This document shows positions 22,446 to 26,455 of a DNA stretch of 30,021 nucleotides, piece after piece. Made by a program: the position numbers and the translations under genes. The stretch's first letter is position 1; every line of letters starts with the position of its first letter. Below the pieces are notes generated by a model. The model searched no databases. It was given only the letters and a program-made list of their open reading frames with translations, and was not told the DNA's origin. This DNA comes from a virus: positions 1-30,021 of IMG/VR virus record IMGVR_UViG_3300043468_000075, one strand, 5' to 3'.

Positions 22446-22453
22446 TATATTTG
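22446..22453 (+). promoter_or_regulatory. possible -7 box (TATATTTG) just after the phosphoesterase gene
   Basis: TATATTTGCAT here matches 11 bases of the two strong early promoters. A TTG at the expected -33 place is missing (ACG; TTTA is nearby). A transcript from here would meet a terminator within about 50 bases, so it is either a very small RNA promoter or a chance match. Confidence 0.35.
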
Positions 22454-22481
22454 CATCACCTGCCATTATTCATAGCGTAAG

Positions 22482-22507
22482 AGCCTCTTTAATCGGAGGC
22501 TTTTTTT
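22482..22507 (+). terminator. intrinsic terminator at the end of the late block
   Basis: AGCCTC (22482-22487) pairs with GAGGCT (22496-22501) around an 8-base loop, followed by a T run to 22507. It lies 36 bases after the phosphoesterase stop and separates late from early genes. TCATAGCGT stands just upstream at 22470-22478, as at the 17375 terminator. Confidence 0.85.
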
Positions 22508-22665
22508 GTTAATTATAACATACATAATCGGTAAAATTCCGACTAAATGCACATTATATTACACCTTTTCGGGTACAAAATAAGGGTAAAACCTTAAAAC
22601 GTGAAAAAAAGTTTGCTTCTACAACCCCCGTCAAATAAGGAAATCTAAAAAAATGTTAAAAAAAG
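22508..22665. other. AT-rich intergenic stretch with inverted repeats
   Basis: No gene is seen here. It holds two small inverted repeats: TCGG-N7-CCGA (22528-22542) and TAAGG-N6-CCTTA (22581-22596), with a further TAAGG near 22636. It lies between the late terminator and the first early promoter, where operators or a replication origin would be expected. Neither role is shown by the sequence. Confidence 0.35.
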
Positions 22666-23959: not shown

Positions 23960-24101
23960 ACTAACATACCAAGTAGGACAAAAGGTAGTTCAGGAATGGA
24001 TACTTACCTCACAATCATTAGCCTATTGGAAAAAGCAGGATTTACTAAAAACAGGACAATACCAGTTAGGAAAATTTATAGTAACCCCAATAGAACCATA
24101 A
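23949..24101 (+). CDS. small beta-type early protein, unknown
   Basis: A 50-residue protein from ATG 23949 (MRYKLTYQVGQKVVQEWILTSQSLAYWKKQDLL) ending GKFIVTPIEP. It looks like a small beta-hairpin domain with a central helix. A longer start at 23916 is possible but would lie further inside the upstream gene. The stop shares a base with the next start (TAATG). Confidence 0.6.
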   Translation: MRYKLTYQVGQKVVQEWILTSQSLAYWKKQDLLKTGQYQLGKFIVTPIEP

Positions 24102-24493
24102 TGACGAAAGTAGAACTCATACAAGAGATTATAGAGCAGCACAAGCTATGGTCAAAGAATCGCAGCAGGGAGTATATTTACAAGCGTTATTACCTTTATA
24201 ATGAACTCCGTGTTTTAGGATTCTCATTAGACGAGATAGGCAAGAAGTTCGGAGGTAAACATCACGCTACAATCATTCACGGACTACGGCAACACGAAGA
24301 CTTGCACAGGTTTGGATACGAAGACTACAAGATAGCTACTAAGCAAATAGATGATGTCTTACACGGAGCTACGCTTCCTTTGATTGATGACTCACCTGAT
24401 TTAGCAAAAGACGTACTAAAGGCAAAAACTTACACCCAGTTCAAAAAGATTCAACGACATATAAAATTGGGCAAGTACGAAAATAGTTTATAG
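24101..24493 (+). CDS. DnaA domain IV-like DNA-binding protein
   Basis: A 130-residue protein from ATG 24101. Residues 36-66 read LRVLGFSLDEIGKKFGGKHHATIIHGLRQHE, which has the layout of the DnaA C-terminal DNA-binding domain (helix, helix-turn-helix with G-(K/R)-(D/H)H-(T/A)-T-(V/I)-xH). There is no AAA+ ATPase part. The N-terminus has a charged helix (SKNRSREYIYKRYYLYNEL) and the C-terminus another basic one (YTQFKKIQRHIKLGKYEN). It may bind DnaA-box-like sites at a phage origin or on the host chromosome; both are inference. It is the last gene before the small RNA region. Confidence 0.75.
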   Translation: MTKVELIQEIIEQHKLWSKNRSREYIYKRYYLYNELRVLGFSLDEIGKKFGGKHHATIIHGLRQHEDLHRFGYEDYKIATKQIDDVLHGATLPLIDDSPDLAKDVLKAKTYTQFKKIQRHIKLGKYENSL

Positions 24494-24522
24494 TTGATGC
24501 AACTTTTTTCATGGTTATACGT

Positions 24523-24530
24523 TATCTTTG
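24523..24530 (+). promoter_or_regulatory. -7 box (TATCTTTG) ahead of small RNA
   Basis: TATCTTTG fits TAnnTTTG. A TTG at the right -33 distance is not present (nearest is 24494-24496, 26 bases away), so the -33 part is weak. The expected start of RNA, about 6 bases downstream, falls at the foot of the 8-bp stem at 24541. Confidence 0.5.
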
Positions 24531-24536
24531 TAGACG

Positions 24537-24623
24537 AGTTGGCTGGACACCATAAACTCTAAGGTATTATTGACCCTTGTATTGATTCGCAAGTCCAGCC
24601 GCGATGAGATGCAGGGGTTTTTT
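24537..24623 (+). ncRNA. candidate small structured RNA with terminator
   Basis: The segment lacks a gene and has three linked signs of an RNA. A -7 box lies just upstream. A perfect 8-bp stem pairs GGCTGGAC (24541-24548) with GTCCAGCC (24593-24600). CCCTTG (24574-24579, in the loop) can pair with CAGGGG (24612-24617), which is followed by six T, so the end is an intrinsic terminator whose left arm lies within the first stem: a pseudoknot or an either/or switch. CCTTG can also pair with AAGG (24561-24564) or CAAG (24590-24593). It could be a free RNA of about 87 bases or an attenuator ahead of the replication genes. No known RNA family was recognised. Confidence 0.5.
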
Positions 24624-24642: not shown

Positions 24643-24825
24643 ATGAACGAAATTTATTTTAAATGTCAATTTAATGACAAAGACCAAATGATTGTTTCTA
24701 AAGGAGATTTTATTTGCTTTGAAATTATAGAAGGCGAACAATCAAAAACGGTTTGCATTGACATTAAACAAGCGTACACCTTAATCAAAACTTTAGAAAA
24801 TTTTAGCAATGAGCAGTTGGATTAA
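24643..24825 (+). CDS. small early protein, unknown
   Basis: A 60-residue protein from ATG 24643, the first start after the small RNA terminator (MNEIYFKCQFNDKDQMIVSKGDFICFEIIEGE). It looks like a small beta sheet with a C-terminal helix (KQAYTLIKTLENFSNEQLD). Three Cys are present. A longer start at 24604 would lie inside the terminator and is unlikely. It overlaps the next gene by 17 bases. Confidence 0.65.
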   Translation: MNEIYFKCQFNDKDQMIVSKGDFICFEIIEGEQSKTVCIDIKQAYTLIKTLENFSNEQLD

Positions 24826-25417
24826 ATTACACCGCAGTTTAAAAGACTGGGAGTGGTATGATGACCACAACGCAACACGTTTACTTTTACATTTGCTTAT
24901 TTCGGTAAATTACAAAGACAAGGAATGGAAAGGGCAAACAATAAAAGCGGGTACATACGTTACCAGTTGGGAAAATCTTTCCAAAGAAATAGGCTTATCG
25001 GTCAAGCAAACAAGGGTTGCAATGGACAAGTTAGAAAGGTCTAAAGAAGTGACACGCAACGTGACAAACAAATGGCAAGCTATAACCCTTATAAAATGGG
25101 ACAAATTGCAATGTGAAGAGGTAGAAAAGGGCAAGCAACAAGTCAAACAAAGGGCAACAACTAAAGAAAGTAAAGAAGTAAAGAATAATACTATACCTGA
25201 ATTTTCGGAGTTTTTAGCTTATGCTTTAGATAAGAAACCAAAAGTGAGTCAGATAGATTTAAGACTTAAATACGAAAGTTGGAAAGAGAGTGATTGGAGT
25301 ATAAATAGAAATGGTAAATTGCAACCTATTTCCAATTGGAAGTCTACGTTACTAAATACGCTTCCGTATATAAACGAAATATCTTATAGTTTACCATCTG
25401 AAATTTGGGAGGGATAG
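24809..25417 (+). CDS. winged-helix replication initiator-like protein
   Basis: A 202-residue protein that begins MSSWIKLHRSLKDWEWYDDHNATRLLLHLLISVNYKD, then GTYVTSWENLSKEIGLSVKQTRVAMDKLERSKEVTRNVTNKWQAITLIKW, a winged helix-turn-helix of the type at the front of phage replication (DnaD/replisome organiser-like) proteins. A charged linker (KGKQQVKQRATTKESKEVK) leads to a short C-terminal region ending with NWKSTLLNTLPYI, also usual for these. It would bind the phage origin and help load the helicase encoded 3 bases downstream. Confidence 0.75.
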   Translation: MSSWIKLHRSLKDWEWYDDHNATRLLLHLLISVNYKDKEWKGQTIKAGTYVTSWENLSKEIGLSVKQTRVAMDKLERSKEVTRNVTNKWQAITLIKWDKLQCEEVEKGKQQVKQRATTKESKEVKNNTIPEFSEFLAYALDKKPKVSQIDLRLKYESWKESDWSINRNGKLQPISNWKSTLLNTLPYINEISYSLPSEIWEG

Positions 25418-25420
25418 AAT

Positions 25421-26455
25421 ATGTACAAGAAATTAACAGACCTAAATGCTGAAATGTTTAGTATTAGACACGAAAAAGATGTAAGAGGAAAGTCAATAGG
25501 TTGGGATTGGGATATGCTACCACTTACAATCAAGGAAGGAACTACAACTTACATAGGTGCAGCTCCTGCATCAGGAAAGACGGAGTTATGGTTTGAGATA
25601 CTTATAAACCTTTCGTGTTTACACGGTTGGAATCACGTTGTATTTTCTCCTGAGACTGGAAGTAGTGCCGAGATATTTTCTGAACTATGCTACAAGTACA
25701 TAGGTAAGCCATACGTTCAAGGACAAAACTCAATGACTAACAGTGAACAAGTAAGTGCTGAAATGTTTATAAATGAGCATTTCATTGTAATTGACCCAAT
25801 TGACGAGGATTTGACTATAACTAAATTCTACCAACTTGTAGATGAGATTGAGCGCAAAGAAGGTATTAAAATCCATACCACTACGATTGACCCGTGGAAC
25901 GAGTTAACCGAGGAGTTTATTCCTGCTGATTTAGGACGTGAGGATAAATACTTGAGTAGGATTCTTGGTTTAGTTCGTAAGAACGCAAGAAAGACAGGTA
26001 GACATAACTGCGTTATAAATCACGTTAGAGACCAACCAATGGTAACTGCAATGTCAATAGCAGGAACTGAACTTAGATACTTTCCGATTCCTACGGCACG
26101 AGATTTTTCAGGCGGTCAGGTATGGTTTAGAAAGGGTTTAAGCGTATTAATTCCGTGGAGACCTCCGTATGGTTTACCTGATGCTAATGGAGTAGGTGCA
26201 GAAAAGAACGAAGTTCATTTGAAGGTGGCTAAGAGCAAGCCAAAAGGCGTATCGAAAAACGGAGTGTACAAATTATTCTTGGATGTTGAACGTTACCAGT
26301 ATTATATGCTTGACTTCAAAGGTAATCGTGTTTATGCAAACCGAGGAACTACCTACAAGAAGGAATCACAACGTAAAATTGAGATACCAAAAGACGGACA
26401 AATAGAAACTACCTCAGAGAAACTTCGTAGACTTGCAAACAAAAACCCTTTTTAA
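25421..26455 (+). CDS. DnaB-like replicative helicase / RecA-fold ATPase
   Basis: A 344-residue ATPase. It lacks the DnaB N-terminal domain and goes almost at once to the RecA-type core: GWDWDMLPLTIKEGTTTYIGAAPASGKTEL with Walker A at 46-54, HVVFSPETG (72-80), Walker B-like TTTIDPWNEL (153-162), INHVRD (199-204), and ARDFSGGQVWFRKG (226-239) near the nucleotide contact loop. This is the layout of phage DnaB/Twinkle-like helicases that unwind DNA at the fork. The gene follows the initiator-like gene directly. Confidence 0.8.
   Translation: MYKKLTDLNAEMFSIRHEKDVRGKSIGWDWDMLPLTIKEGTTTYIGAAPASGKTELWFEILINLSCLHGWNHVVFSPETGSSAEIFSELCYKYIGKPYVQGQNSMTNSEQVSAEMFINEHFIVIDPIDEDLTITKFYQLVDEIERKEGIKIHTTTIDPWNELTEEFIPADLGREDKYLSRILGLVRKNARKTGRHNCVINHVRDQPMVTAMSIAGTELRYFPIPTARDFSGGQVWFRKGLSVLIPWRPPYGLPDANGVGAEKNEVHLKVAKSKPKGVSKNGVYKLFLDVERYQYYMLDFKGNRVYANRGTTYKKESQRKIEIPKDGQIETTSEKLRRLANKNPF

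Follow-up and report, generated by a model that had tools for sequence, protein, structure and literature searches.

A covarying kissing-loop leader RNA predicted to control replication genes in phages of aquatic Bacteroidota

The window analysed here is the whole 30,021-nt stretch of IMG/VR virus record IMGVR_UViG_3300043468_000075. A first-pass annotation of this DNA had noticed a candidate small RNA beside the replication genes, and the location is borne out: a DnaA-C gene lies upstream, and loader and helicase genes lie downstream. The locus comprises the following features.

24101..24493, + strand: upstream gene with a DnaA C-terminal HTH domain (Pfam Bac_DnaA_C, E 2.2e-9)
24500..24530, + strand: promoter, with a -33-like CAAC at 24500-24503, a 19-nt spacer and the -7 box TATCTTTG at 24523-24530
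24533..24623, + strand: structured leader RNA, predicted terminated product, from homologue pairing and a match to model R1 (94.6 bits, the window sequence itself being in the R1 seed)
24536..24559, + strand: hairpin P1, stem 24536-24540 with 24555-24559; compensatory changes at 4 of 5 pairs
Within P1, + strand: loop L1, with the kissing word GGCTGGAC at 24541-24548 and then a conserved A-N-N-ATA tail
24541..24600, + strand: kissing stem L1:L3, GGCTGGAC (24541-24548) with GTCCAGCC (24593-24600); 6 of 8 pairs compensatory, 100% paired
24561..24571, + strand: single-stranded linker AAGGTATTATT; AAGGNATTATT is found in 101 of 112 distinct type I cores
24573..24623, + strand: terminator stem P2 and T6 tract, 24573-24582 with 24609-24618; 7 of 10 pairs compensatory
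24583-24586 / 24605-24608, + strand: P2/P3 internal loop with tandem G-A
24587..24604, + strand: hairpin P3 with loop L3 AAGTCCAGCC, stem 24587-24590 with 24601-24604; 4 of 4 pairs compensatory
24643..24825, + strand: first downstream gene, 60 aa (from the ORF list), 19 nt past the T-tract
24809..25417, + strand: DnaD-like helicase loader (phrog_2514, E 2.7e-17)
25421..26455, + strand: replicative helicase-like gene (phrog_5482, E 2.8e-37; phrog_239 primase/helicase, E 8.5e-13)

The sequence elements from which the candidate had been built are all present: the -7 box, the perfect 8-bp complement between GGCTGGAC and GTCCAGCC, and CCCTTG (24574-24579), which is complementary to CAGGGG (24612-24617) directly before the six T at 24618-24623. 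Folded alone, the window's copy gave a z of only -1.4, with 21 of 200 shuffles folding equally well, so that relatives had to decide whether the fold is real. IMG/VR relatives were reached through DnaA-C and helicase homologues and carried homologous DNA at the same site. Using nhmmer on the fetched IMG/VR loci we recovered 210 distinct copies, of which 139 have the longer form seen in the window (type I) and 71 a shorter form that occupies the same site in loci without an R1 match (type II). Within the window itself, R1 finds the element in single copy.

We aligned 20 distinct type I homologues, picked as diverse and alignable, and the structure was derived from these same sequences. Standard pairs fill 540 of the 540 cells and two-sided compensatory changes occur at 21 of 27 pairs; deriving the structure from homologues chosen in this way flatters the pairing percentage, and the compensatory changes to a lesser degree. 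Shuffles scored 0.251 and slid partners at most 0.105, against a covariation score of 0.806 for the alignment. Type II behaves similarly, with 96.5% of cells paired and 13 of 23 pairs compensatory in an alignment of 10 sequences. Comparison of the homologues confirms a folded RNA at 24533-24623, and one that extends beyond what the first-pass annotation had described. Indeed, the 8-bp pairing is genuine, but its loop-loop nature (L1 with L3) had been missed, as had helices P1 and P3. In type I, P1, the L1:L3 kiss, P2 and P3 can all form at once; about 16 distinct kissing words occur among type I copies, and the folding energy of P2 and P3 together is about -18.5 kcal/mol. Where P2 meets P3, the internal loop of type I shows tandem G-A, and that of type II reads AGUA/GAA, resembling the bacterial loop E motif.

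The earlier proposal of at least three exclusive folds is not supported. No base is used by both the 8-bp stem and CCCTTG:CAGGGG, which form a single fold and both covary in relatives. Two alternative pairings were discarded: AAGG:CCTT is conserved in relatives without covariation, and CTTG:CAAG is mostly incomplete in them. No conserved antiterminator and no mutually exclusive fold was found in type I. Because its four helices are compatible, classical attenuation by fold switching is not visible in this type.

The type I alignment also reveals the strand, since it contains 30 G-U cells and no A-C cells, as expected if the folded molecule is the + strand RNA. This bears on the idea that the element, which lies in the replication module and adjoins a DnaA-domain gene, is a single-stranded DNA origin or primosome signal and not an RNA. 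We consider this extremely improbable, as the bias in G-U cells reports RNA pairing on the + strand, the promoter and the U-tract stand at fixed distances, and the copy in Tenacibaculum phage Gundel_1 precedes a gene annotated as an antirepressor.

A -7 box of the type TAnnTTTG precedes 130 of 134 type I and 61 of 68 type II copies. The established -33 element of Flavobacterium is TTG (PMC8092290). In the leader promoters (24500-24530 in the window, and 163 distinct relatives) the usual TTG is replaced, giving the arrangement AAC-N19-TATATTTG. AAC is found 18-20 nt before the -7 box in 104 of the 163 distinct promoters, against 2.6% of the other TATATTTG octamers of the same contigs, most of which need not be promoters. 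This arrangement suggests that a distinct sigma factor or activator may serve these promoters. A TATATTTG box also stands elsewhere in the window (22446-22520), immediately after the exonuclease gene, and a GAGCCTCTTTAATCGGAGGC hairpin with a T-run comes no more than about 35 bases later; this hairpin is probably an ordinary terminator. In the leader, transcription likely starts at about 24533-24536, slightly upstream of the previously proposed 24537, because P1 starts at 24536.

Downstream, a start codon in the same direction lies no more than 47 nt from the T-tract in 210 of 210 distinct copies, with a median gap of 18 nt in type I and 11 nt in type II (19 nt in the window). The comparisons show this fixed place between the -7 box and the start codons, as well as the fold and the strand. 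The gap leaves no room for a promoter, and TAnnTTTG within the RNA body or the gap is so rare (7 of 134 type I copies, none of 68 type II copies) that a separate downstream promoter is unlikely. The intrinsic terminator predicted from P2 and T6 lies between the promoter and the first gene, so the downstream genes must be read through it.

The neighbouring genes are mostly those of replication operons, the leaders preceding loader, DUF6291, primase-like or helicase genes. Other first genes include those for DUF6291, BT4734-like/PriCT primase-like and MT-A70 proteins, and small ORFs related to the 60-aa ORF follow 24 type I copies. A DnaA-C-type gene lies upstream of 119 of 182 copies. Among pattern-found copies, a DnaA-C relative lies upstream in 57 of the 115 having an upstream ORF, and loader or helicase relatives lie within 3.5 kb in 67 of 135; all these neighbour counts are biased because the fetching of many loci relied on patterns or on nearby genes.

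The first-pass annotation had left open whether the RNA is a free pseudoknotted molecule or an attenuator. What stands is an RNA of roughly 90 nt that folds through a kissing loop and has a promoter and a terminator of its own, and of the two options we favour the attenuator, because a start codon closely follows every copy and the gap is too small for a promoter. The reading that we consider fairly probable is that of a self-kissing leader of the replication operon whose built-in terminator would attenuate the replication genes and leave an RNA of about 90 nt. The specialised promoter would start transcription at about 24533-24536; the RNA would fold into the P1 and P2/P3 hairpins, with loops L1 and L3 kissing; and P2 with U6 would terminate transcription intrinsically, 19 nt short of the first start codon, with most transcripts expected to end as the compact RNA. 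Helicase loader and helicase would then be expressed from read-through transcripts only. From this arrangement we infer transcription, termination and read-through, and with them the regulatory outcome.

The same features could instead describe a stand-alone small RNA acting in trans, in which the terminated RNA of about 90 nt is the functional product, the downstream genes are fed by leaky read-through, and L3 or the linker recognises other RNAs, of phage or host, by pairing, relatives with a site D (described below) targeting the start of their own neighbour. Its own promoter, the stem at its 5' end, the terminator at its 3' end and the very strong conservation of its body would suit such an RNA, D offers a ready antisense target, and there is a precedent in Gifsy-1 IsrK, the read-through mRNA of which is a trans target of the short RNA (PMC4825925). 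We nevertheless judge it a minority possibility: among 210 distinct copies none was found apart from a downstream start codon, no exact L3 target exists elsewhere within the window, and in the folded RNA L1 already engages L3.

In many copies the L1 word is repeated as a site D, located 0-5 nt before the ATG and complementary to the copy's own L3. D is present in most type II copies and in one type I subtype (CCTTCGAC / CTTCGAC). It was found in 47 of 67 copies with the six type II words (GTTGCAG, GTGCAG, AAGCAG, AGGCAG, ATGCAG and GAGCAG) and in 10 of 14 with CTTCGAC; the type II words have GCAG in common, so it is the two or three letters that vary which carry the agreement. Many ATGCAG copies lack D. 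The window has none either, no D-like word having turned up for its L3, and among type I words CCTTCGAC is nearly alone in having one. Wherever D occurs, L1, L3 and D agree in sequence, and L3 can pair with L1 or with D, never with both at once. This choice between L3:L1 and L3:D is the sole well-supported competition within the leader family. A Shine-Dalgarno role for AAGGA was set aside, as type II lacks AAGG. Returning to the attenuating leader, L3 would be its regulatory hub, held by L1 and, in many relatives, alternatively pairing with D at the ribosome-binding region. L3:D pairing may thereby control translation, adding a further layer to the read-through mRNA.

What sets the level of read-through may lie in the unpaired parts of the RNA. 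The conserved linker and the internal loops are the likely contact sites of a factor that would do so. In the put RNA and in the ZTP and fluoride riboswitches, termination is tuned by a bound factor or small molecule. One could thus picture the whole leader as a riboswitch-like or protein-binding antitermination element, in which a small molecule, or a factor from phage or host, on the linker and internal loop tunes termination. The invariant unpaired nucleotides fit this picture, namely the AAGGNATTATT linker and the tandem G-A or AGUA/GAA loops, but we find no association with metabolic genes, no alternative expression platform, and no occurrence outside phages within the range searched, and we hold it to be improbable.

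Kissing words vary between copies even within one contig. Most phages of about 30 kb have one copy; three contigs have two, one with both of type I (L322) and two with one of each type (L303 and L342), and the words differ between the copies in all three. We speculate, with little confidence, that the kissing words form an address code, whereby the terminated RNA would act in trans on sibling transcripts, its L3 and L1 pairing with another's L1, L3 or D, so that phage genome copy number would feed back on the expression of the replication genes and co-resident phages would be orthogonal. If true, the circuit would control copy number in the manner of a plasmid, with no antisense promoter involved.

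The leader family belongs to viruses of aquatic Bacteroidota, and cultured phages are among its carriers. Tenacibaculum phage Gundel_1 (45 bits, kiss GCTCTCAC) has a weak U-tract, TTTCTTG, and the gene downstream is the annotated antirepressor, not a replication gene; Flavobacterium phage FL-1 scores 44 bits. Phages FCL-2, FCV-1 and FCOV-S2 are carriers by anatomy: taken singly, their loop-loop word falls short of significance (8-10% of shuffles contain 7-mer matches), and their membership rests on position, promoter box, hairpins and terminator combined. The one RNA-seq data set located for F. columnare B185 comes from cultures to which no phage had been added. Gundel_1, FL-1, FCL-2 and FCV-1 are independent genomes with like folds. 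The named phages were reached via the DNA of one type I subtype and via helicase protein; DNA similarity searches of them with the window element, type II or other subtype queries gave no match. In Riemerella phage PT03, gaps viewed by eye held no member, and a pattern scan of genome contigs returned 42 stretches, none of which R1 scored as real. The 396 Flavobacteriales genomes searched gave weak matches only, with no convincing copy, and no integrase was found in 17 carrier records, which are possibly fragments. Two contigs (L205 and L192) contain remoter kissing leaders with a -7 box TATATTAG and a P1 of TTCA/TGAA, alike by eye and given no score by R1. In phage FL-1 (L494, 2345-2520) we also noted an unannotated tRNA-Leu-like sequence with a long insertion, for which ARAGORN and Rfam return nothing.

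The first-pass annotation had known of no named RNA family that fits, and no Rfam family matched: neither the window nor its relatives gave a match at the gathering score, and looser thresholds yielded none at E<=10 for the window region and none at E<=1 for three relatives. At these thresholds the c4 antisense RNA (RF01695) and known riboswitch classes had no covariance-model match. The proposed leader resembles P4 CI RNA, P1 c4 and IsrK in logic, without detectable membership. The c4 RNA of phage P1 is small, lies on its target's strand and has complementary words close to a start codon. As a comparison system, the c4 antisense RNA of P1/P7 (RF01695, listed in PMC2864571) differs from the leader in fold and host phylum and in the lack of an Rfam match here. 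P4 CI RNA (seqA/seqB/seqC) and Gifsy-1 IsrK are precedents for self-complementary phage leaders (PMC4825925). Like the leader as proposed here, P4 CI RNA belongs to a phage leader before replication genes; one of its segments is complementary to sites up- and downstream, as L3 is to L1 and D, and premature termination of the replication genes is under its control. It differs in being released by processing of a longer leader and in acting during lysogeny (PMC4825925), whereas the leader described here has its own intrinsic terminator, an internal kissing loop and Bacteroidota hosts, with integrase not found. In Gifsy-1, transcription from a phage promoter produces either IsrK as a short terminated RNA or a read-through mRNA, pairing is possible between the short RNA and the leader, and an antirepressor gene follows (PMC4825925), a neighbour that Gundel_1 also has; our leader differs in its kissing-loop architecture, its mostly replication genes and the absence of an Rfam match. 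SAM-II riboswitch leaders of metZ/metA likewise combine a pseudoknotted leader and a terminator to give an sRNA and a read-through mRNA (PMC9373788), but the present leader has no metabolic genes and no known ligand, and its terminator stem lies inside the folded element.

With its kissing-loop architecture, the leader appears to represent a family of structured RNAs in Bacteroidota phages that Rfam does not contain. To our knowledge, little is known of RNA control in the phages of this phylum, and this family appears to combine unusually clean covariation with a direct link to phage DNA replication. Since cultured phages carry the leader, how they gate their replication genes is directly testable, and the varying L1, L3 and D words could supply orthogonal regulatory parts.
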